Assembly: GCA_024628785.1 (NCBI GenBank) | Contig: CP102405.1 | Coordinates: 930,001-994,000 of the forward strand | DNA from: Fusobacteria bacterium ZRK30 | GTDB lineage: Bacteria; Fusobacteriota; Fusobacteriia; Fusobacteriales; Fusobacteriaceae | Direction: 5' to 3' | Length of the DNA stretch: 64,000 nucleotides | In this document: one piece after another, positions 1 to 12,214 of the stretch | Layout of the letters: every line of letters starts with the position of its first letter | Position numbering within the stretch: position 1 is the stretch's first letter | Translations under genes and position numbers: made by a program | The notes under the pieces: generated by a model | Seen by the model: the letters and a program-made list of their open reading frames with translations, nothing else | What the model was told of the DNA's origin: nothing | Database searches by the model: none

Positions 1-60
1 CAGAAACAAAATGGAATTTTTTGAAATTTAACAGGAAAACAGTTAAAATATAGGAAAGAT

Positions 61-92
61 AAAAAAGAGTAGCTTAAGCTACTCTTTTTTTA
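61..92. terminator. Intrinsic terminator upstream of uvrB
   Basis: A perfect 20-bp dyad (AGAGTAGCTT/AAGCTACTCT, 66-85) is flanked by A-runs and followed by seven T. It would end a gene lying left of the window, or act in both directions. Confidence 0.8.
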
Positions 93-131
93 TCTTTCTT
101 GATTAAAAAAAATGAAACAGGGAGGGCTAAG

Positions 132-2108
132 ATGTTTAAATTAGTGTCAAATTACACCCCTACAGGAGATCAGCCAAGTGCTATAAAAACTCTGGTAGAG
201 GGGTTAAATAATAATTATAGGGATCAGACATTATTAGGAGTAACGGGATCAGGGAAAACATTTACCATAGCCAATATAATTAAGGAAACCAATAGACCGG
301 CTCTTATTATGGCTCCCAATAAAACTCTGGCAGCACAACTATATTCGGAGTATAAAAAGTTTTTCCCTGAGAATGCAGTAGAATATTTTGTATCCTACTA
401 TGATTACTACCAGCCAGAGGCTTATATTCCCTCTACAGACACGTTTATAGAAAAAGACTCATCTATCAACGATGAGATCGATAAAATGCGACATTCGGCT
501 ACTGCGGCCCTCTTAACCAGGAAAGATGTTATAATAGTAGCTTCTGTATCGGCCATCTATGGATTAGGATCACCTGAAACATATAAGAAGATGACCCTGG
601 CTATCGATCTTAAGAGCGGTATGAGCCGAGATGAAGTTATGAAAAAATTAATATATTTAAGGTATGAAAGAAATGATATAGCCTTTGAGAGGGGAAAATT
701 CAGAGTCAAGGGAGACATTATAGATATCTATCCTGTTTATCAGGAAAGTGGGTACAGGCTGGAATACTGGGGGGATGAACTGGAAAGTATCTCTGAAATA
801 AACACCCTTACAGGTCAGAGTATAAAAAGAAATATTCAGAGGATAATGATCATGCCAGCTACCCACTACCTGACAGAAGGGGAGAAATTGGAGCAGATCA
901 TGGAGGAGATAAAAAATGATCTGGAGATCCAGGTGGAAAAATTTGAAAACAAAGGAAAACTTCTGGAAGCCCAGAGGATAAAACAGAGAACTGAGTATGA
1001 CCTGGAGATGATAAAGGAGATCGGTTACTGTAAGGGGATAGAAAACTATTCCAGATATCTGTCGGGTAAAAAAGAGGGAGAGAAACCCCATACACTACTG
1101 GAATACTTTCCCGATAATTTTTTAATCTTTATAGATGAATCCCACATAGGACTGGCCCAGATTGGCGGGATGTACAAGGGAGACAGGTCCAGAAAAACAA
1201 CTTTAGTGGAAAATGGATTTAGGTTACCATCTGCTTTAGACAACAGACCCCTAAAATTTGAAGAATTCAGAGAGGTAGGAGGGCAGATGGTATTTGTTTC
1301 GGCCACCCCTGGAGACTTTGAATTGGAAAATAGTGAGTCTGTAGCAGAACAACTGGTTCGTCCTACAGGGATTGTAGAGCCTAAGATAATAATAAAACCG
1401 ACTAAAAACCAGGTGGATGATCTTCTGGAGGAGATAAGGTTGAGGGTAGAGAAAAAACAATGTGTTTTAGTGACTACCCTGACAAAAAAAATGGCAGAGG
1501 AGCTGACAGAATATTACCTTGATTTAGGAGTGAGGGTGAAATATATGCATTCCGGGGTAGATACTTTGGAAAGAATCGAGATAATTCGGGGATTAAGAAA
1601 AAAGGAATTTGATGTATTAGTAGGAATAAATCTATTGAGGGAAGGATTAGATATTCCAGAGGTATCCTTGGTGGCTATATTAGAGGCAGATAAGGAAGGG
1701 TTTTTAAGGAGCAGGAGATCACTGATACAGACCATGGGAAGAGCAGCCAGAAATATAGAGGGAGAAGCTATCCTGTATGCAGATGTTATTACAAAATCTA
1801 TGGCAGAAGCTATCTCAGAAACAGACAGAAGAAGGGAAAAACAGCTAGAATATAATATAAATAATAATATAGATCCAAGATCCACTATAAATGAGATATC
1901 GGAAGATCTTTTAAATCTCGATTATGGTTTAGATATAGATGAGATAAATGAAGAGGTAATGGTATATAGTTCTAAAAAGGATATAGTAGAGCAGATAGAA
2001 AGATTAAAGGCTGAAATAAGTCAGTTAGCTGGAGAATTGGATTTTGAAGGAGCTATAAAAAAGAGAGATGAGATGTTAAAATTAGACAAATTATTGTTGG
2101 AAATATAG
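132..2108 (+). CDS. uvrB: Excinuclease ABC subunit UvrB
   Basis: UvrB is the damage-verifying helicase-like subunit of nucleotide excision repair; it is loaded by UvrA and recruits UvrC. The 658-aa protein has the usual length. Walker A (GVTGSGKT) lies near residue 36. The beta-hairpin region [12 protein letters not shown] follows, then DESH (Walker B), the helicase motifs VSATPGDFE and QTMGRAARN, and a C-terminal UVR motif around [14 protein letters not shown], which contacts UvrC. The ATG at 132 is chosen because GGAGG sits 7 nt before it; an upstream in-frame TTG at 99 has no ribosome binding site. It opens a co-directional DNA-metabolism cluster. Confidence 0.97.
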
Positions 2109-2125
2109 GTGATTAGGAGGAAATC

Positions 2126-3265
2126 ATGAAAAATATAAAAGTAGACAGATTTCTAAAGAAATACGATAAGATGCTGCCTGTCTATAATGAGATGGTAGAG
2201 GTTATACAAGAGATCTTTGAAAATGAGATTGAAAACAGGGATTATAGACTTCAAAGTATAGATTTTCGAATAAAAACCAAGGGAAGTTTGAGCAAAAAAA
2301 TTCATGATAAGGGGAGAAAATACCAGAGGTTATCCGATATTACCGATGTTGTAGGAGTCAGAGTAGTTACTTTTATGGAGGATCAGGTAGACATAGCTGC
2401 TGAAAAAATAAAAGAATTTTTTGTGATAGATGAAAAAAATACTATCGATAAGAGAAAAGCATTGGATCCTAGATCTTTTGGATATCTGTCTCTGCATTAT
2501 GTAGTTTCATTTCCATTGGAAGAGAAATATAAAAAATTTAAAGGGATAAGGTTTGAGATTCAGATAAGGAGTCTTCTACAGCATACTTGGGCTACCATAG
2601 AACATGATTTGGGGTATAAAAGCAGGATAGGAATCCCAGATGAATTGATAAGAAGTTTCTCTAGAGTCGCAAGTTTACTGGAGTTAGCTGATAAGGAATT
2701 TGTAAATATAAAACAGGATCTGATAAAATATGAGGAAAAAGTACATGATTCTATGAAGATGGGGAAAAATATGCCTAGTGATAGCCCGTTAAATAATATA
2801 ACCATTAGGTATTTTATGGAAAATAATATTATCTTGAATAAACTTTTTAGAGAGACTCTGGCAGAACTTAACTTAGAGGAAGAGGCCAGGGAGGAAGCCC
2901 CAGTAGAGATAATAAAATTATTGAACTATTTTAAATTAAAGAGGATAGGAGACCTAGAAACTATACTCCAGACTAAAAAAAGAGAAATAATTTTTGTAAC
3001 CAATAAAATAGTCCAGGAAACAGGGGAAAATGTAATAGAGAAAAGAGGTATATTTTATTCCATGGCCTATGTGTTGCTCGGAGGAGAACCACTCAGTGAG
3101 AAGTTAAAATTTTTAGAGATGTTTAAGATATTAACCGATGACGAGAGAAAAGGGATGGCAGAGATGATGGAGAAATATCATCTGGAATATAAAAATAAAT
3201 CCAAAAAGCCCACTAAATATTCCTTAAAGAATATTATTTTCAGAAACAAAAAGGGGGCTAAATGA
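2126..3265 (+). CDS. RelA/SpoT-domain (p)ppGpp synthetase-like protein
   Basis: A small-alarmone-synthetase-type protein expected to transfer pyrophosphate from ATP to GDP/GTP. Residues about 45-170 carry the family motifs: KTKGSLSKKI, ITDVVGVRVV, GYLSLHYVV and EIQIRSLLQHTWATIEHD. The EIQIR glutamate and WATIEH segment are the synthetase signature. There is no HD hydrolase domain before it and no TGS or ACT domain after it, so it is not a long Rel. At 379 aa it is longer than RelQ/RelP-type enzymes (about 210 aa), with some 200 extra C-terminal residues of unrecognised, mostly helical character. The ribosome binding site is AGGAGG. Its stop overlaps the start of the next gene by 4 nt (ATGA), implying translational coupling. 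Product and direction of catalysis are inferred from family motifs. Confidence 0.85.
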   Translation: MKNIKVDRFLKKYDKMLPVYNEMVEVIQEIFENEIENRDYRLQSIDFRIKTKGSLSKKIHDKGRKYQRLSDITDVVGVRVVTFMEDQVDIAAEKIKEFFVIDEKNTIDKRKALDPRSFGYLSLHYVVSFPLEEKYKKFKGIRFEIQIRSLLQHTWATIEHDLGYKSRIGIPDELIRSFSRVASLLELADKEFVNIKQDLIKYEEKVHDSMKMGKNMPSDSPLNNITIRYFMENNIILNKLFRETLAELNLEEEAREEAPVEIIKLLNYFKLKRIGDLETILQTKKREIIFVTNKIVQETGENVIEKRGIFYSMAYVLLGGEPLSEKLKFLEMFKILTDDERKGMAEMMEKYHLEYKNKSKKPTKYSLKNIIFRNKKGAK

Positions 3266-4722
3266 AAAAAATAGAGTATTATGGGGAATTTTTAGAGAAG
3301 CTCAGTGAGTATTTAGGGGTACAATTAAAGCTAAAAGCTCATGGTAATCATGTGGAATTTATACCTGAATTTAATTCAAAATTTATTAAGAAAACTCTGG
3401 AACATATAGGTGAGATTTTTGAGATCTTGGATATAATCTTAGAGGAATACTATGAGGAAAATAATAATATCTACTTTACCGATCTGATAGAGGAATTTTC
3501 TCAAAAATTAATAGGGCACATGGTAAAGGAAAAGTTGGTAGTCACAAGTGAACAGATGAACTTTATGGATACCATAAAAAGGATATGTAATGAAACTTAT
3601 GAAAGTGAAAATTCAAGTTTAAATATATTACTTTTTAAAAACAGGGAAATTATCCCAGAGGAATTGAAAAAAATGGGGTTAAATTTCCTTCCCTTTGATA
3701 CTCCTAAAAAAATAGAGGAGATATTTAAAGAGAAACTATCCCTGAAGATGTTAAATGGGGATAATTTGGTGTTGATCATTGATAGTGACTTCAGAGGTTA
3801 TGGATTAGGAGTAAATGATGAGAAAAATAAGGTGTTCAAGGAGAGGATGCTGGTTAAACTAAGGAGTCAAAATAACGGATATTTAATCTCATTTATATCC
3901 ATGTTATCTAAAAACATTTTAAGCTATATAGATAAAGACAGTATAAGTGTAGAAGTTAAGGCTGGATTTAAGATGAGTGAGGAAAAGATAGAAAAATTGG
4001 TTAAATATTCTAACGAAGAGATGATCTCATCTAAAGTTCTTTTTAACACTTATAATAAGGAAAAGAGAGAGAGATTCCCTTATATCTATATGGAAATTAA
4101 AAATAAAGAGTTAAAATTATATTTACAGAATTCTATAGACAACTACCTTTCATACAGGGGAGGGAAATGGAAGTTAAAATCTTTTCATATATTAAAATTT
4201 TTGATTATAGAAAAATTTTACATGGATTCTTTTGTATTTCACCTTTTTAATGATAAAATAGAAAAAAAAGATATAATTGAAAATATTATAATGAATGTAG
4301 ATGTTTTGGTCTGCCTCATTAAAAACCTCCTGGAAGAAGGCAAGGGAGGACTTTTTATAATTCTAGAGAGAAGTATAAAAAAAATAGAGAGGGAAAAGAT
4401 ATTTGTAGGGGGAAATGAAGACAACAGCATATATAAAAGGACAGTTTTAAAGGATGGCAATAATACCAGAATAAAAAATCATAATTTTGAATATTTGAAG
4501 CTAATATCTAAAGTAGATGGTGCTGTGACCCTGGACAATGAATTTAACCTTTTATCATTCGGCAGATTGGTGAAACTGGATATGAATGGAAGTAAGGAGA
4601 AGGTCGAAGGGGCCAGAACTGCTGCTGCAATAAGCGGGTCTAAATATGGCTTAGCTATAAAGGTATCCGAAGATAAAAAAATAACTGTTTGGGAAGATGG
4701 GATAAAAATATTGGAGATATAA
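3262..4722 (+). CDS. Unknown protein with a C-terminal DAC (diadenylate cyclase)-like domain
   Basis: I do not recognise the first 350 or so residues of this 486-aa protein. They are charged and mixed alpha/beta, with no signal peptide or membrane segment. The last 125 residues follow the order of a DisA_N/DAC domain: GGLFIILER (362-370, compare GALIVIE), DGA (419-421), then GARTAAA (450-456) and KVSEDKKITVWEDG. In true diadenylate cyclases the second motif is GTRHRAA; here RHR reads RTA, so ATP handling is probably changed. A ligand-sensing or inactive DAC-like domain is more likely than a c-di-AMP synthase. The gene starts inside the stop of the alarmone-synthetase gene, which suggests a shared role. 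Function not established. Confidence 0.55.
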   Translation: MKKIEYYGEFLEKLSEYLGVQLKLKAHGNHVEFIPEFNSKFIKKTLEHIGEIFEILDIILEEYYEENNNIYFTDLIEEFSQKLIGHMVKEKLVVTSEQMNFMDTIKRICNETYESENSSLNILLFKNREIIPEELKKMGLNFLPFDTPKKIEEIFKEKLSLKMLNGDNLVLIIDSDFRGYGLGVNDEKNKVFKERMLVKLRSQNNGYLISFISMLSKNILSYIDKDSISVEVKAGFKMSEEKIEKLVKYSNEEMISSKVLFNTYNKEKRERFPYIYMEIKNKELKLYLQNSIDNYLSYRGGKWKLKSFHILKFLIIEKFYMDSFVFHLFNDKIEKKDIIENIIMNVDVLVCLIKNLLEEGKGGLFIILERSIKKIEREKIFVGGNEDNSIYKRTVLKDGNNTRIKNHNFEYLKLISKVDGAVTLDNEFNLLSFGRLVKLDMNGSKEKVEGARTAAAISGSKYGLAIKVSEDKKITVWEDGIKILEI

Positions 4723-4793
4723 TTCTTTCTCTTTACTTTTAATAACCATAAAACGGATATCTGTAGATGAGAGAGGGCAAAGAGGAGAAATAT

Positions 4794-5993
4794 ATGAAGG
4801 ATAGGATATTTACAGTAAGTCAGATGAATAAGATGGTAAAGGAATATTTGGAGGGAAACGACAGTTTTAATAATTTTTTCCTTAAAGGGGAGATTTCAGG
4901 GATAAATTACTATAAGAGCGGCCATCTGTATTTTACCCTTAAAGACAGTAGGGCAAGTGTAAAATGTGTATCTTTTGGATATAAATTTAAAAAGATACCG
5001 GAGGACTTGAAAGAGGGGGATAAGATAAAATTATTTGGAAAGGTGACTCTCTATGAAGCTAACGGGAACTATCAAATACTGGTAGCCCATGTGGAAAAAG
5101 AGGGAACTCTGGGGAAACTCTTTGAGGAACTGGAAAGGACTAAAAGAGAGTTGGCTAAAGAGGGTTATTTTGACGCAAAATATAAACTGCCTATTCCCAA
5201 ATTACCTCAAAATATAGGGGTAGTAACTTCTGGAACAGGAGCGGCAGTAAAAGATATAATAAATACAGCTAAACTCAGATATGAAAATATAAATATCTAT
5301 GTCTATTCTGCCAAGGTTCAGGGAATAGGCTCTGAAGATGAGATCATAAAGGGAATAAAAACTCTGGATAAGATGGAGGAGATTGATCTTATCATAGCAG
5401 GACGGGGAGGAGGAAGTGTAGAAGACCTGTGGTCATTCAATAAAAAAGAGGTGGCTCTGGCATACTTTAACACTAAAACGCCCATTGTTTCAGCTGTGGG
5501 CCATGAGATAGACAACCTTTTGACAGATCTTACAGCAGATATGCGAGCTTCTACTCCGACCCATGCAGCGGAGTTAGTCGTTCCCAGAAAAGACCAGTTG
5601 ATGGAAATGTTGGAAGATAGGAGGAGAAAGCTAAATAACAGCCTGCTGGCCAATTTACAGAAGAAAAAGGAAAAATTAGAAACTTTAAAAAGAAGTTATA
5701 TCTTGAGGAGTTATTTAGAGACAGTTGTAGACAGGAATAACCTGTTAATGGACAGGGAAGACAGGTTAAAAAAAGCTATTAACAATAGCTTAATGCAAAA
5801 AAAACACCTTTTAGAAGTGAGGATGGAAAAACTCCGTTCATTGAACCCAGAAGGGATATTAAAGAGGGGATATACTATAACTAAAGCAGGAAATAAGATT
5901 ATAAGAGGGGCAGGAGAACTAAAAATAGATGAAAAAATAGAGATTATATATCACGATGGTAGTGTAATCAGTAGAGTAGAGGAGATAAAATAG
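4794..5993 (+). CDS. xseA: Exodeoxyribonuclease VII large subunit
   Basis: Catalytic subunit of exonuclease VII, which degrades single-stranded DNA from either end to short oligonucleotides. The N-terminal OB-fold (about residues 1-100, with FFLKGEISGINYYKSGHLYF) is followed by the nuclease core with GVVTSGTGAAVKDI, GRGGGSVEDLWSFN and VGHEIDNLLTDLTADMRAS, then a helical region and a conserved C-terminal ending (LKRGYTITKAG). The ATG at 4794 is preferred over 4767 because AGAGGAGA lies just before it and the protein then begins at the family position (399 aa). No xseB follows; the next gene encodes a TPR protein and starts on the base after the stop codon. Confidence 0.95.
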   Translation: MKDRIFTVSQMNKMVKEYLEGNDSFNNFFLKGEISGINYYKSGHLYFTLKDSRASVKCVSFGYKFKKIPEDLKEGDKIKLFGKVTLYEANGNYQILVAHVEKEGTLGKLFEELERTKRELAKEGYFDAKYKLPIPKLPQNIGVVTSGTGAAVKDIINTAKLRYENINIYVYSAKVQGIGSEDEIIKGIKTLDKMEEIDLIIAGRGGGSVEDLWSFNKKEVALAYFNTKTPIVSAVGHEIDNLLTDLTADMRASTPTHAAELVVPRKDQLMEMLEDRRRKLNNSLLANLQKKKEKLETLKRSYILRSYLETVVDRNNLLMDREDRLKKAINNSLMQKKHLLEVRMEKLRSLNPEGILKRGYTITKAGNKIIRGAGELKIDEKIEIIYHDGSVISRVEEIK

Positions 5994-6887
5994 ATGAAAA
6001 AATTATTGATAGTGTTATTTATTGGGATAGTCTCAATAGGGTATGCAGAAGTTCAGGATGGTTTTATTACAGAAAATACTTATAAAATGACAGAGAACAC
6101 ACTTGGAACCTATGAAAAATATATGGAGGCAGGAGAGGACTCTTATTTAGAGGGAAATTACAGTGATTCGTTGGATTTTTATTTGAATGCCTTTAAGGTG
6201 AAAAAAGATGATATAGAATCTCTTCGTGGGGTGGCTAGATCATATGAGGGACTGAACCAGCCGGAGAAAGCTTTGGGAGTATATAGAAAAATTTTAAAAG
6301 TAAACCCTGAAGATATAAAAGCGTTGCAAAAAAAACTTATTTTAGATAAAAAAAATGTTTCTAAGTGGGGATACGATAAAAAAGAGGAATATTTTGAGGA
6401 GTTTGAAAACTATCTGAAGAAAACTAATTATGTAAACAGCGAGGATATTTATACCTTGGGAAGTATATATATGAATGATAAATCTTTTGAAAGAGCTTAT
6501 ACTGTATTTAAGAGGGATAAGGCTGGCGATTACAGAAATTATTTCGGTACAGCTACAACTGCCAGATTTTTAGGAAAATATGATACTGCTATTACATTCT
6601 ATAACAAACTTTTATCTGTAAAACCAGATTTTTATAGAGGGTATCTCGGACTGGGAACTTCTTACCAGATGAAAGGAAATTATGATAAGGCAATAGAAAA
6701 TATGGAGAAATATCTGATCTACCAGGAGGACGAAAACGTCTATATAGCCATGGCGAATATCTATATGGCAGAGGATAGATACAGCAGTGCTAAAGATATT
6801 TTGGAGAGGGCACAGGTTAAATTTCCTGACTCGAAGAAAATAAGAAAAAATTTAGGGTATATATATAGTAAGTTAGGGAGAAATTAA
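5994..6887 (+). CDS. Exported TPR-repeat protein
   Basis: A 297-aa protein with a Sec signal peptide (KKLLIVLFIGIVSIGYA, cleavage likely after residue 18) and several tetratricopeptide repeats. These include SYLEGNYSDSLDFYLNAFKV, KALGVYRKILKVNPED, YDTAITFYNKLLSVKPD and YDKAIENMEKYL. TPR arrays are protein-binding scaffolds. The location is probably periplasm or outer membrane, but there is no lipobox. The start codon abuts the xseA stop without a gap, so the two are probably co-transcribed and translationally coupled although no shared role is evident. No specific function can be assigned. Confidence 0.75.
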   Translation: MKKLLIVLFIGIVSIGYAEVQDGFITENTYKMTENTLGTYEKYMEAGEDSYLEGNYSDSLDFYLNAFKVKKDDIESLRGVARSYEGLNQPEKALGVYRKILKVNPEDIKALQKKLILDKKNVSKWGYDKKEEYFEEFENYLKKTNYVNSEDIYTLGSIYMNDKSFERAYTVFKRDKAGDYRNYFGTATTARFLGKYDTAITFYNKLLSVKPDFYRGYLGLGTSYQMKGNYDKAIENMEKYLIYQEDENVYIAMANIYMAEDRYSSAKDILERAQVKFPDSKKIRKNLGYIYSKLGRN

Positions 6888-6957
6888 GTGGTGAAAAATT
6901 AAATAAAAAAGGTTTTTAAATTATATTTTGATTAAAACTGTCGTGGAGGTGAAAGCT

Positions 6958-8013
6958 TTGGATTCTTGGTATAAATTGAGAGTGGCAGGAGTAAGAGACA
7001 GTATAATAATTAAACTGATGAATTTGTGTGAAGAATTTGAAGAAATTTTCCTCCATGACAGGGTATTTTATAATAAAATTATGAGGTTTAAATATGAGGA
7101 TATTGATAAAATTTTAAATTCTTATAAAATTAATCTTGATTTTTATAGGGAAAAGATGCTAGATTTAAATATTGAAACAATTTCTATAAAGGAAAGAGAG
7201 TATCCATTATATTTAAAAAATATCTCACATCCACCGGTATTTCTATACATAAAGGGAAAGATGACCTTTTATGATAAAAATATAGGAGTAGTCGGAACAC
7301 GGAAGATGAGTAGTTATGGGGAATCTGCGTGCAGGGAATTAGTAGGAGATTTAGTAGGGGCAGGAGTTACTATAACTAGTGGACTAGCAATTGGAGTAGA
7401 TGTAACTGCTCATAAGAGGGCCTTGAACCTAGGTGGAAATACCATAGCTGTTGTAGGAAGCGGATTAGATGTAATCTATCCTCCTCAAAACAAATATGAA
7501 TGGGAAAGGATAGCCAGAGAAGGGACCCTTATAAGTGAATATCCATTGGGCACTCCTCCAGAGAGGTATAATTTTCCCAGGAGAAATAGGATAATAGTGG
7601 GATTGACCAGGGGAGTTACAGTAGTAGAGAGTTATAAAAAAGGCGGAAGTTTAATAACTGCTAAACTGGCTTTAGAGGAAGGCAGAGATGTGTTTGTTAT
7701 TCCGGGATTTCCAGGCTATATCTCCTTTGAGGGTAATAATAATCTCATCAAAGACTCCTATGGTAAGTTAATTACCTGTGGAAAAGATATATTAGAGGAG
7801 TATGGCTGGGATGGTAAAAACCAAATTAATGTAAAAATAGATATAGATCCGGAAGAGGAAAAAGTATATAGTGCATTGGTTGTAGAAAAAAGTTTGGATG
7901 AACTGATGACAGAAACACATATCCCTATAGGGAAACTTTTAGGATTATTGACAAATTTAGAATTAAAAAAACTTGTGAGAGCTATTGCAGGTGGTAAATA
8001 TAGAAGAGTGTAG
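6958..8013 (+). CDS. dprA: DNA-processing protein DprA
   Basis: DprA/Smf loads RecA on incoming single-stranded DNA during natural transformation. The Rossmann-fold core is clear: YIKGKMTFYDKNIGVVGTRK, then SSYGESACRELVGDL, SGLAIGVDVTAHKRAL, AVVGSGLDVIYPPQN, SEYPLGTPPERYNFPRRNRII and SYKKGGSLITAKLALEEGRDV. The last 60 residues look like the DML1-type winged helix (SLDELMTETHIPIGKLLGLLTNLEL). I start at TTG 6958 because GGAGGT ends 8 nt upstream; the upstream TTG at 6928 has no ribosome binding site and would add only ten residues. It lies 27 nt before topA, as in many bacteria. Confidence 0.95.
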   Translation: MDSWYKLRVAGVRDSIIIKLMNLCEEFEEIFLHDRVFYNKIMRFKYEDIDKILNSYKINLDFYREKMLDLNIETISIKEREYPLYLKNISHPPVFLYIKGKMTFYDKNIGVVGTRKMSSYGESACRELVGDLVGAGVTITSGLAIGVDVTAHKRALNLGGNTIAVVGSGLDVIYPPQNKYEWERIAREGTLISEYPLGTPPERYNFPRRNRIIVGLTRGVTVVESYKKGGSLITAKLALEEGRDVFVIPGFPGYISFEGNNNLIKDSYGKLITCGKDILEEYGWDGKNQINVKIDIDPEEEKVYSALVVEKSLDELMTETHIPIGKLLGLLTNLELKKLVRAIAGGKYRRV

Positions 8014-8040
8014 TAAAGACAAAATATTGGAGTGATAGAA

Positions 8041-10677
8041 GTGGCTAAAAAAAATCTAGTTATAGTGGAGTCGCCGGCAAAGGCAAATACTATAAAGAAA
8101 ATATTAGGACGTAACTATGAGGTTACAGCCTCATATGGACATATAAGGGATCTTCCCAAGACAAAGATGGGGATAGATATAGAGAATGATTTTACACCCT
8201 CTTATTCGACAATAAAGGGTAAGGGAGAAATAACCAAAAACTTGAGAGCATTGGCAAAAAAATCAGATAAAATTTATCTGGCAGCCGACCCGGATAGGGA
8301 AGGGGAAGCTATAGCCTGGCATATAGCTCATATATTAAAATTAGATCCAAAGGAAAAAAACAGGATAGAATTCAATGAGATAACTAAAACTGCAATAAGA
8401 GAAGCAGTAAAAAACCCTAGAACTATAGACCAGGACAGGGTCGATGCACAACAGGCAAGAAGATTATTAGACAGGATAGTAGGGTATTCTATCAGTCCAT
8501 ACCTGTGGCAGTTAATATCTTCTAACACCAGTGCAGGAAGGGTCCAGTCGGTATCATTAAAATTAATCTGTGATTTAGAAGATGAGATAAAGGCATTTAT
8601 TCCTCAAAAATATTGGGAAGTAAGCGGAAATTTCAGTGACAATATAGATCTGAATCTCTATAAATCAGGGGATGACAGGGGAATTAAAATCTGGGATGAG
8701 GAAAAGATGGAGGAATTAAAGAAAACTCTGGAAATGCATCCTACTTTTGAAGTGACCAGCACTGAGATATCCAAGAAAACTAAGAAGCCTCCACTACCAT
8801 TAAAGACAAGTACATTACAACAATTAGCTTCATCATATTTAGGTTTTTCAGCTTCTAAAACCATGAGGGTAGCTCAGAGTTTATATGAAGGGTTGAAGAT
8901 AGATGGAACTCAAAAAGGTCTGATTACCTATATGAGAACTGACTCTACCAGAATATCAGAGGAAGCTCAAGGGCAGGCTAAGGAGTTTATTTTAGAAAAA
9001 TATGGTGAAAAGTATATAGGAAAAGAGAAGAAGAAAAAAACAGATGATAAAAAGAAAATACAGGACGCCCATGAGGCGGTAAGACCTACCTATATAGATT
9101 TAGAACCGGATAATATTGAGGAATACCTGAATTCTGACCAATACAGGTTGTATAAATTGATTTGGGAAAGGTTTATAATCTCCCAGTTGGCTCCTATGGA
9201 ATATGACCAATTTACACTGATAAGTGGATATGATAAATATCAATTCAGAGGGATAGTAAATAAGGTAACCTTTGACGGATACTATAAGGTATTCAAAGAG
9301 GAAGATGAAATAAAAACAGCTAGTTTCCCTAGTATTGAAAAGGGGGATAAGTTAAATTTAGAAAAATTAAATATAAAGGCAGACGAAACTAAACCTCCTA
9401 AAAGATTTACAGAATCTTCACTGGTAAGAAAATTAGAAGCTGATGGAATTGGAAGACCTTCTACCTATGCATCTATCATAGAAACTTTGAAGAAGAGGGA
9501 ATATGTAGAATTTATGGGGAAATCATTTGTACCTACTAAGTTAGGTTATGATGTAGAAAAGATATTGAATAAATATTTCCCAAGAATATTGGGAGTAGAA
9601 TTTACATCTAGTATGGAAGACGCTCTGGACTCAATTGAAGAAGGAGAAATAAAGTGGACCAATGTTTTAGATGACTTTTATATAGATTTTAAAAAGGCAC
9701 TGGATAACTTTGATAAAGAAGTAGAAAAAATTACCAATAGAAGGATTGAATCTGATGTACCATGTCCAGTGGATGGCTGTCCAGGGAAGATGCTCCTAAA
9801 AACAGGTAGATTTGGAAAATATTTAGAGTGTGAACACTTTGAAACCTGTAGTGGAAGGATTCCATTAAAAACAGTGGAGATCGATGAACAGGAATTAGAG
9901 GATGGGCATATCTTTATCAATGAGGTCGTACAGAAGAGAGAAAGAATTAAAAAGGGAATACCTACTGATATAGTGATCAAAGGTGTGAGATATAACCTGA
10001 AAAAAGGAAGATTTGGAGAATACCTAGAGAGTGAAGATTATGAAACAGATAATAAAAGACTGCCATTATCCAGTGCTGTTATAGGTGTTTTGAGAGATGG
10101 AAGTATAGAGATCGATGTGGAAATGATAGCTCTAAAAGAAAGATTGTTAGAGATGAATGAGTATTTTGAAGAAAAAGATACCGACATGAAAACAGAAGAT
10201 GGAACTATGATGATCTTAAAAAAGGGAAGATATGGAGAGTATTTGGAAAGTGAAAACTTTGCTACTGATGAGATCAGAATCCCGCTCCCGGCCAGTATAA
10301 AAAAGATAGTAAAGGAAGGGCAGTTAGAGGAAAAAGATGGAGTTATAATAATTAAATACCTATTGGATGAGATCAAAGCTGTAGAAGACAAACTCATAGC
10401 TGAAGCCGGGGTATGTGAAAAGTGCGGCAGTAAATTTGAGATAAAGGCAAGCAGAAGGGGGAAATTCCTGGCTTGTAGTAACTATCCAACCTGTAAAAAT
10501 ACAAGAAAAATATTAAAAGATAAGGAAACAGGGGAACTTTCGGTAGCTCCTCCTGCAAAGAAAAAAGAACCGGTAAAAAAAGCAGCGGTAAAAAAAGCAG
10601 CAGCAAAAAAAGCACCTGCAAAGAAGACGGCAGCTAAGAAGAAAACAACAACTAAAAAAGTAAAAGAAGAAAAATAA
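8041..10677 (+). CDS. topA: DNA topoisomerase I
   Basis: Type IA topoisomerase that relaxes negative supercoils. TOPRIM motifs are present (VIVESPAKANTI at the start, AADPDREGEAIAWH). The catalytic tyrosine is Y297 in LITYMRTDSTR. The C-terminal half holds Topo_C repeats (GRFGKYLE, GRFGEYLE, GRYGEYLE) with zinc-ribbon cysteines (CPVDGCPG...CEHFETC and CEKCGSKFE...CSNYPTC). The last 40 or so residues are a lysine/alanine-rich tail with repeated AKK/VKK units, resembling histone H1 tails and probably a DNA tether. GTG 8041 is the likely start: TTGGAGTG precedes it and the protein then opens with the family's N terminus. Length 878 aa. Confidence 0.97.
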   Translation: MAKKNLVIVESPAKANTIKKILGRNYEVTASYGHIRDLPKTKMGIDIENDFTPSYSTIKGKGEITKNLRALAKKSDKIYLAADPDREGEAIAWHIAHILKLDPKEKNRIEFNEITKTAIREAVKNPRTIDQDRVDAQQARRLLDRIVGYSISPYLWQLISSNTSAGRVQSVSLKLICDLEDEIKAFIPQKYWEVSGNFSDNIDLNLYKSGDDRGIKIWDEEKMEELKKTLEMHPTFEVTSTEISKKTKKPPLPLKTSTLQQLASSYLGFSASKTMRVAQSLYEGLKIDGTQKGLITYMRTDSTRISEEAQGQAKEFILEKYGEKYIGKEKKKKTDDKKKIQDAHEAVRPTYIDLEPDNIEEYLNSDQYRLYKLIWERFIISQLAPMEYDQFTLISGYDKYQFRGIVNKVTFDGYYKVFKEEDEIKTASFPSIEKGDKLNLEKLNIKADETKPPKRFTESSLVRKLEADGIGRPSTYASIIETLKKREYVEFMGKSFVPTKLGYDVEKILNKYFPRILGVEFTSSMEDALDSIEEGEIKWTNVLDDFYIDFKKALDNFDKEVEKITNRRIESDVPCPVDGCPGKMLLKTGRFGKYLECEHFETCSGRIPLKTVEIDEQELEDGHIFINEVVQKRERIKKGIPTDIVIKGVRYNLKKGRFGEYLESEDYETDNKRLPLSSAVIGVLRDGSIEIDVEMIALKERLLEMNEYFEEKDTDMKTEDGTMMILKKGRYGEYLESENFATDEIRIPLPASIKKIVKEGQLEEKDGVIIIKYLLDEIKAVEDKLIAEAGVCEKCGSKFEIKASRRGKFLACSNYPTCKNTRKILKDKETGELSVAPPAKKKEPVKKAAVKKAAAKKAPAKKTAAKKKTTTKKVKEEK

Positions 10678-10687
10678 GAAAATTGCT

Positions 10688-10720
10688 AGATCTCCCATTA
10701 TTTCAATGGGAGATCTTTTT
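10688..10720 (+). terminator. Terminator of the uvrB-topA cluster
   Basis: A perfect 12-bp stem (AGATCTCCCATT / AATGGGAGATCT) with a 5-nt loop is followed by TTTT, 11 nt after the topA stop. Confidence 0.88.
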
Positions 10721-10826
10721 GCCTTCACATAATTTTCATATTTAAGGAGTAGAGTTAAGTATAAAAGGAAATTAAATTGATAAAGGGAAAATTTATAAAT
10801 TATTCTACTAAAGGAGGTCGGGGAAG

Positions 10827-11312
10827 ATGAAAATAAAATTTATAGGGATCGTAATGATATTGGTGTTGAGTAGTTTAACCTTTGCTGGTTATGGTAATAA
10901 AGGAGCTGAAAAGGATAGTAATATAACGGTACAGGAGATGATTAAATATTCAATAGAGGATGAAATCTTTGCAAAAACAGAATATGAGAAGATAATGAAA
11001 ACTTTTAATATCGACAGACCATTTTCAAATATAAAAAGAGCAGAGGAAACTCACATGGAACTATTGCAGCCCCTTATTGAAAAATACAATGTCCGTTATG
11101 AAAAATTAGAGGAAAAGGACCTTGTAGTTCCAAAAACTTTAAAAGAAACTTTTGAAATAGGAGTGCAGGCAGAGATAGATAATATAGCCATGTACGAAAA
11201 GTTTCTAAAAGATGAAAATTTACCTGATGATGTAAGGGAAGTGTTTACCTATCTCAGAGATGGATCAAAGAACCATCTGAGAGCATTTGAAAGACAGTTG
11301 AGTAAATACTAA
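10827..11312 (+). CDS. Exported ferritin-like protein (DUF2202 type)
   Basis: A 161-aa protein with a cleavable signal peptide (MKIKFIGIVMILVLSSLTFA) and a four-helix ferritin-like fold. It has regularly spaced Glu/His metal-ligand candidates: SIEDEIFAKTEYE, RAEETHMELL, EAEIDN-like QAEIDNIAMYEKF and KNHLRAFERQL. This matches the DUF2202 group, whose members are usually periplasmic and of undemonstrated function; rubrerythrin-like peroxide or iron handling is a guess from the fold. AAAGGAGGT precedes the ATG. It is a single gene between two terminators. Confidence 0.7.
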   Translation: MKIKFIGIVMILVLSSLTFAGYGNKGAEKDSNITVQEMIKYSIEDEIFAKTEYEKIMKTFNIDRPFSNIKRAEETHMELLQPLIEKYNVRYEKLEEKDLVVPKTLKETFEIGVQAEIDNIAMYEKFLKDENLPDDVREVFTYLRDGSKNHLRAFERQLSKY

Positions 11313-11398
11313 CTGATTACGAATATTAGGGAATTCCTGTATTAAAAAAAATTCTAAATGTGAAATTAGAGAAAACCAGGTGGAATTTAATAAGTTCA

Positions 11399-11438
11399 AA
11401 AGCTTATGCTTTCGTTAGAAGGTATAGGCTTTTTTTAA
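11399..11438 (+). terminator. Terminator after the ferritin-like gene
   Basis: AAGCTTATGC pairs with GTATAGGCTT (two G-T wobbles) across an 18-nt loop and is followed by T7. Confidence 0.6.
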
Positions 11439-11540
11439 CAAAGAGGAAATGAGTAATGTTTTTAAAAGGAAATTTAATAGAGTTAAATAATAACATTAAT
11501 GTATATTATTTTATTTGGTAACGAAGAAGGGAGGTTTAAT

Positions 11541-11756
11541 ATGGTTCGATTTATTGATTTTCACGGAGAAATAAAAAGTTTTTATGGAGAACACTATCAT
11601 ACTTTTGAAGAAGTAGAAGTAATAGGCTTAGAAGAAAAAGTATATATGTTAAAAGTTGGAGAAGTAATTCATTACATTAGGAAAGACGTTTATGAAAAAT
11701 TACAAAGGATAAAAGCTTATAAAGAAAGTGAGGGAGAATCATGTGAACAGTTATAG
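11541..11756 (+). CDS. Small unknown protein
   Basis: A 71-aa acidic and aromatic protein (FIDFHGEIKSFYGEHYHTF..., EVIHYIRKDVYEKL) with no signal peptide or recognised domain. The ATG at 11541 has a good ribosome binding site (GGGAGGT, 8 nt upstream); upstream in-frame sequence to 11499 has none. It stands alone between two terminators, is in-frame with good codon use, and is probably real. Function unknown. Confidence 0.6.
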   Translation: MVRFIDFHGEIKSFYGEHYHTFEEVEVIGLEEKVYMLKVGEVIHYIRKDVYEKLQRIKAYKESEGESCEQL

Positions 11757-11775
11757 ATAAATTTTAATAAAAAAA

Positions 11776-11815
11776 AGAGATGTATTCCCACAACAGTGGA
11801 AATATATCTCTTTTT
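11776..11815. terminator. Bidirectional terminator between convergent genes
   Basis: AGAGATGTATTCCCAC and GTGGAAATATATCTCT form a long, slightly mismatched stem with loop AACA. A-run and T-run flanks let it serve both the small + strand gene and rpsI on the minus strand. Confidence 0.8.
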
Positions 11816-11824
11816 GAAATAACC

Positions 11825-12214
11825 TTATCTCTTTGAGAATTGAGGTGATTTTCTTGCTTTTTTCTTTCCGAATTTCTTTCTTTCAACCATTCTTGAGTCT
11901 CTAGTTAAGAATCCAGCTTCTCTTAAAGCACCTTTTAAAGTTTCATCAGCCATTAATAATGCTCTAGCAACACCATGTCTGATAGCTCCTGCTTGACCAG
12001 TAGTTCCTCCACCGTTTACGTTTACTTTAACTCCAAATTTCTCAGCAGTTTCAGTTAAAACTAAAGGTTGGTTTACGATATCTCCTAAGATTCCTCTTCC
12101 GAAATACTCGCTCATTTCTTTTCCATTTATAGTAACACCTGTTTCACCAGGCACTAAGATTACTCTTGCTACTGAAGTTTTTCTTCTTCCAGTTCCTCTA
12201 AATTGTACAGCCAT
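11825..12214 (-). CDS. rpsI: 30S ribosomal protein S9
   Basis: S9 of the small-subunit head, whose C-terminal tail reaches the P-site tRNA. The 129-aa protein starts [18 protein letters not shown] and contains [19 protein letters not shown] and the basic ending [18 protein letters not shown], all typical. It is second in the rplM-rpsI pair, 21 nt downstream, with an AGGAGG ribosome binding site in the gap. Confidence 0.98.

Follow-up and report, generated by a model that had tools for sequence, protein, structure and literature searches.

A small alarmone synthetase gene (SAS) that runs into a gene for a degenerate diadenylate cyclase (DAC)-like protein (DACL) raises the question of whether the second product controls the first. 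The two genes lie in a 64,000-nucleotide stretch (the window) of a Psychrilyobacter genome (Fusobacteriota; G000, contig C2), in the order uvrB, SAS, DACL, xseA, TPR protein, dprA, and topA, the flanking genes being named by reading the sequence. The open reading frames given by the initial annotation proved exact (Table 1), and so did its report that an ATGA couples the end of SAS to the start of DACL. This junction is kept among orthologues: the eight Psychrilyobacter copies show an ATGA overlap (5/8), a 14-base overlap (1/8), a one-base overlap (1/8), or abutment (1/8). An Rfam scan of window positions 1 to 12000 gave no match, and a promoter and terminator scan of positions 1900 to 5000 gave nothing above shuffled sequence.

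Table 1. Features of the SAS-DACL locus (window coordinates)
Feature	Position	Strand	Basis
SAS, small alarmone synthetase, 379 aa	2126..3265	+	Pfam RelA_SpoT, RelQ/YjbM PDB relatives, motif columns
ATGA shared by SAS (stop) and DACL (start), translational coupling	3262..3265	+	Overlap or abutment at all eight orthologous junctions
DACL, degenerate DAC-domain protein, 486 aa	3262..4722	+	Pfam DAC, canonical DAC profile, family relatives
DACL N-terminal segment, residues 41-124, with NETYES	3382..3633	+	Weak colinear alignment to the wider family's TYEG segment
DACL DAC-like domain, residues 361-480	4342..4701	+	Pfam DAC match
GGLF (DAC motif GALI), residues 362-365	4345..4356	+	Motif definition PMC7288161
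DGA motif, residues 419-421, kept	4516..4524	+	Sequence comparison
GARTAAA, residues 450-456, where DACs have GxRHRxA	4609..4629	+	Sequence comparison
VSED, residues 468-471, corresponding to DAC motif (V/I)SEE	4663..4674	+	Sequence comparison

SAS retains the motifs of an alarmone synthetase

SAS matched Pfam RelA_SpoT (PF04607; E = 4.8e-19; 69.2 bits, above the curated cut-off of 27), and a PDB search matched it to RelQ/YjbM structures at 9e-17. The synthetase domain spans approximately residues 36 to 203, and its motifs (RxKxxxS, DxxGxR, GYxSxH, and ExQxR) are all intact. When SAS was aligned with nine relatives of diverse origin, R48, K50, S54, D74, G77, R79, Y120, S122, H124, E144, Q146, and R148 were invariant in all ten proteins. 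Judged from its sequence, SAS is very likely an active alarmone synthetase. Among PHROGs it matched phrog_9640, of unknown function (2e-68).

The C-terminal half of SAS had been proposed as a dedicated surface for its partner. This proposal fails, since the same half is carried by SAS relatives with no DACL neighbor, which align with it at 28 to 30% identity to about residue 344; a special partner surface there is thereby ruled out.

The same genome also encodes a long Rel and two other SASs. At L030:4263-4771 (G000:C2, about 1585274-1585771) lies a broken second SAS copy, in pieces 71 to 79% identical and with an internal stop, with no adjoining DACL. A paralogous SAS of 355 aa, sharing 28% identity with the one in the window (L029:5061-6128 in G000; L028:4689-5756 in G055), adjoins genes that read as a putative acylphosphatase and a Ppx/GppA-type phosphatase.

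DACL ends in a divergent DAC domain that has lost catalytic residues

The initial annotation likened the C terminus of DACL to DACs. Pfam DAC (PF02457) matched residues 361 to 480 below its cut-off of 27 (20.6 bits; E = 3.4e-4), and it matched six of the eight orthologues, at best with E = 2.3e-5. Despite this subthreshold score, a canonical profile built from 12 DAC domains placed DACL first of the 204 open reading frames in the window (E = 3.8e-8; runner-up, 0.83), with 26.8 bits compared to a best of 7.2 bits among 2,000 shuffled sequences. Residues 362 to 477 were also matched, in several orthologues, by a family profile made without Psychrilyobacter, and a homologue from another genus of the same family (G045; 400 aa, with GARSTAALS) that is alignable with DACL clears the Pfam cut-off at 31.3 bits. 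These profile comparisons support reading the DACL C-terminal region as a divergent DAC domain, with a likeness beyond chance.

The DAC motifs and ATP-contacting residues described in PMC7288161 served as the reference for DACL. The motif order is as first described (GGLFIILE from residue 362, DGA at 419, GARTAAA at 450), to which we add a fourth motif, VSED at 468 to 471. In the first motif, GALI has become GGLF with Leu364 retained; Asp419 of DGA is retained, and DGA is present in all copies covering that region. In VSEE, Ser469 is retained and the last Glu has become Asp471. In GTRHR, the first Arg persists as Arg452, with Thr replaced by Ala451, His by Thr453, and the second Arg by Ala454. 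The break in the RHR motif holds for every Psychrilyobacter copy covering the region, each of which has GARTAAA or GSRTAAA and lacks the Thr, the His, and the second Arg. In CdaA, the Thr and His contact ATP (PMC7288161). DACL is very likely to be DAC-derived and unable to make c-di-AMP in the usual way. Some recognized DACs also deviate from RHR (GARHWAAA, GARFNSA), so that loss of RHR is no proof that all catalysis is lost.

Apart from DAC, Pfam found no domain in DACL at E values up to 10. DACL shares with the DACNG/DACNH and DacZ_P cyclases (PF21752, PF21750, PF21755) an N-terminal module followed by a C-terminal DAC domain, and some recognized members of those families depart from RHR as it does; it differs in having none of their N-terminal Pfam sensor domains, which L092 and L051 do match, and in its subthreshold DAC. 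DisA of the same genome (L001) likewise has a DAC domain, but its GTRHRTA motif is canonical and it carries a DisA-linker domain. A DACNG-DACNH-DAC protein at L092:262-2058 has GARFNSA at the GxRHRxA position, an RHR-less member within recognized DAC families.

Searches of the PDB with the DACL profile and of PHROGs with DACL gave no match. The wider-family profile had as its best PDB match a transcriptional regulator (E = 0.3), with DisA at E = 2. AlphaFold models were too poor for a fold search, both for whole DACL (eight orthologues in the alignment; pLDDT 31.5) and for its C-terminal 152 residues (five orthologues, leaving out G045, G351, and the plasmid relatives; pLDDT 42.5). Alignment of the N-terminal segment with the wider family (hhalign E 0.003 at 10% probability; domain i-E 3.5e-4 when 8 sequences were searched) is weak and suggestive only, and we do not claim kinship there.

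The pair is conserved throughout Psychrilyobacter at a single insertion site

SAS and DACL occur together in all eight Psychrilyobacter genomes searched, DACL being split by a contig end in one. Beyond these eight, protein and orthologue-profile searches found no DACL among 98 Fusobacteriota genomes; the distant G045 relative was detected later, with the wider-family profile. Both genes are under purifying selection, with dN/dS values of 0.03 to 0.07, in line with uvrB and xseA. Conservation within DACL peaks in the DAC motif columns (81 to 86% invariant, compared to 33 to 56% in residues 1 to 272), as a working pocket would predict. At the uvrB-xseA site, neither gene was ever found without the other in the eight genomes, and overlap or abutment holds down to 63% identity. 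That the two are so consistently linked in this genus speaks for a shared function.

The pair is inserted between uvrB and xseA. We compared this junction in 45 other Fusobacteriaceae genomes in which both genes were resolved, and none (0/45) had SAS or DACL there. In 39, uvrB and xseA lie within 132 bases with no intervening open reading frame of at least 60 aa, and one has a 592-base gap. The remaining five hold other genes, named here by sequence reading: a NUDIX-like gene in three, and otherwise a DUF559-like gene with a KAP-like NTPase or a REP-transposase-like gene with another gene. Inserts at this junction vary among several Fusobacteriaceae (L052-L054, L057, L107), as if it were a small insertion hot spot.

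Outside the genus, each family stands alone

In a sample of 389 genomes that included part of Fusobacteriota, the DACL profile detected a protein in G351. With this protein as the query, we found plasmid relatives in Agrobacterium vitis, Paracoccus albus, and Vescimonas, plus one phage scaffold; the plasmid relatives surfaced only in this way, a plasmid search with DACL itself giving no match. Viral contig scans found no relative. Conversely, the wider-family profile, made without Psychrilyobacter members, recovered the copy in every Psychrilyobacter genome, at E values no higher than 3e-9. In place of GxRHRxA the relatives have G[AG]R[TSLG][AT]A, and the pocket Asp, Arg, and Ser and an acidic residue are kept across distant members.

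No SAS lies beside the DACL relatives in G045, G351, the three plasmids, or the phage scaffold, and no fetched locus outside Psychrilyobacter held both genes. Beyond Fusobacteriota these searches covered the 389-genome sample and plasmid, phage, and viral collections, and pairs elsewhere may exist. SAS relatives also stand alone, on a Bacteroides phage-like plasmid, on a 3.5-kb Klebsiella plasmid, and in phages and prophages. The expected linkage of the two genes is thus strict within the genus (8/8) and missing at the loci fetched outside it; the pairing is real but genus specific. Because relatives of each gene stand alone elsewhere, the pair appears to have been put together from two independent families.

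A nucleotide-gated synthetase as the best-fitting reading

With a conserved pocket that lacks catalytic residues next to a synthetase, the best-fitting explanation is that DACL controls SAS by way of a bound nucleotide, and we put it forward tentatively, giving it slightly less than an even chance: a two-gene regulatory module in which a catalytically dead, DAC-derived nucleotide sensor gates a small alarmone synthetase. The first gene would encode a catalytically competent synthetase. DACL, having kept part of the ATP/c-di-AMP pocket and lost the cyclization residues, would probably bind an adenine nucleotide without making c-di-AMP. Bound to SAS, DACL would adjust synthetase activity to whichever nucleotide it holds, most likely by restraint until the ligand changes upon stress (an osmotic or c-di-AMP shift, DNA damage, or phage). 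Released SAS would then make (p)ppGpp or a related alarmone, slowing growth. Since the genome encodes a canonical DisA (L001), c-di-AMP is presumably available. The solitary occurrence of DACL and SAS relatives elsewhere counts against gating, as it indicates that neither family needs the other, and so does the lack of binding between DarB and small synthetases (PMC7900238).

Gating has precedents in DarB-Rel and in Phrann gp29/gp30. In Bacillus subtilis, the c-di-AMP receptor DarB controls Rel, without binding to small synthetases (PMC7900238). As in the mode proposed for SAS-DACL, a (p)ppGpp synthetase is governed through direct contact with a c-di-AMP-linked nucleotide-binding protein; however, DarB is a c-di-AMP receptor domain acting on a long Rel, whereas DACL derives from a DAC and has its gene paired with that of an SAS. 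In Phrann gp29/gp30, the proposed role of the partner is to restrain the SAS (PMC9262239), and toxSASs are kept in check by adjacent antitoxins (PMC11782079). Both resemble SAS-DACL in having, next to the SAS, a gene whose product restrains it or is proposed to, but the described antitoxins have pZFD, Tis1-like, or PanA domains, none of them DAC homologous (PMC9262239, PMC11782079). Pfam detects no pZFD, Tis1-like, or Panacea domain in DACL, although a divergent fold could escape it.

These antitoxin precedents, FaRel2/ATfaRel2 and Phrann gp29/gp30, also lend themselves to a different explanation, a toxin-antitoxin or abortive-infection pair. SAS would then be a growth-arresting effector and DACL a direct-binding antitoxin free of nucleotide control, its DAC domain serving just as a scaffold or as a sensor of phage triggers. 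Such a pair would accord with the bicistronic overlap, with the carriage of SAS relatives as cargo by prophages and small plasmids, and with a partial match of the PADLOC candidate-defense model PDC-S33 over the synthetase domain. We nevertheless regard it as unlikely, given that the closest SAS relatives sit alone on plasmids with no adjoining antitoxin and are of a type not obviously toxic, that Pfam finds nothing but DAC in DACL, and that the DAC pocket columns are strongly conserved.

Co-transcription might also be all that joins the genes, two mobile genes caught in the uvrB-xseA operon with each product working alone. The persistence of overlap or abutment among orthologues to 63% identity and the absence of a single gene of the pair at this site in eight genomes make this quite improbable, even though both families stand alone outside the genus and a few relatives have other inserts at the junction. 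That DACL is instead an enzyme of altered chemistry, whose different nucleotide product activates or feeds SAS, is very doubtful: distant relatives keep the pocket Asp, Arg, Ser, and acidic residue, and the stand-alone, mobile ones suggest an activity of their own, but DACL lacks the second Arg as well as the Thr and His with which CdaA contacts ATP, and no recognizable receptor gene adjoins the stand-alone relatives.

The initial annotation knew of no SAS-DAC-like two-gene system, and we likewise found none described in the open-licence papers searched. Known cross-talk between c-di-AMP and (p)ppGpp runs via DarB and via c-di-AMP phosphodiesterases (PMC7900238). If nucleotide gating is correct, an SAS coupled to a cyclase-derived partner of its own would join the two directly and in genetically encoded form, and would be a small system testable with two proteins and one assay. 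A broader and rather unlikely extension is that a previously undescribed pseudo-diadenylate cyclase family, carried by mobile elements as well as chromosomes in several phyla, consists of nucleotide sensors, one of which was captured in Psychrilyobacter as a dedicated SAS switch, turning c-di-AMP-type sensing into (p)ppGpp-type output within one operon. The wider degenerate DAC family, some of whose members are on mobile elements, would add putative nucleotide-binding proteins of a new class.

Other loci

On Agrobacterium vitis plasmid pRvVAT039d (L069:5971-11771), the DACL relative adjoins a four-gene CBASS-like set on the opposite strand that reads as patatin, DncV-like, ThiF, and Mov34. The Paracoccus plasmid relative (L070:6001-7119) ends just past the DGA segment and has transposases on both sides. 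A protein at L099:5901-7259 appears, by sequence reading, to join a PTS EIIA-like N terminus to a DAC-like C terminus. The lone SAS relative at L103:436-1569 (42% over 198 residues) is among the four annotated genes of a ColRNAI plasmid of 3.5 kb from Klebsiella pneumoniae.
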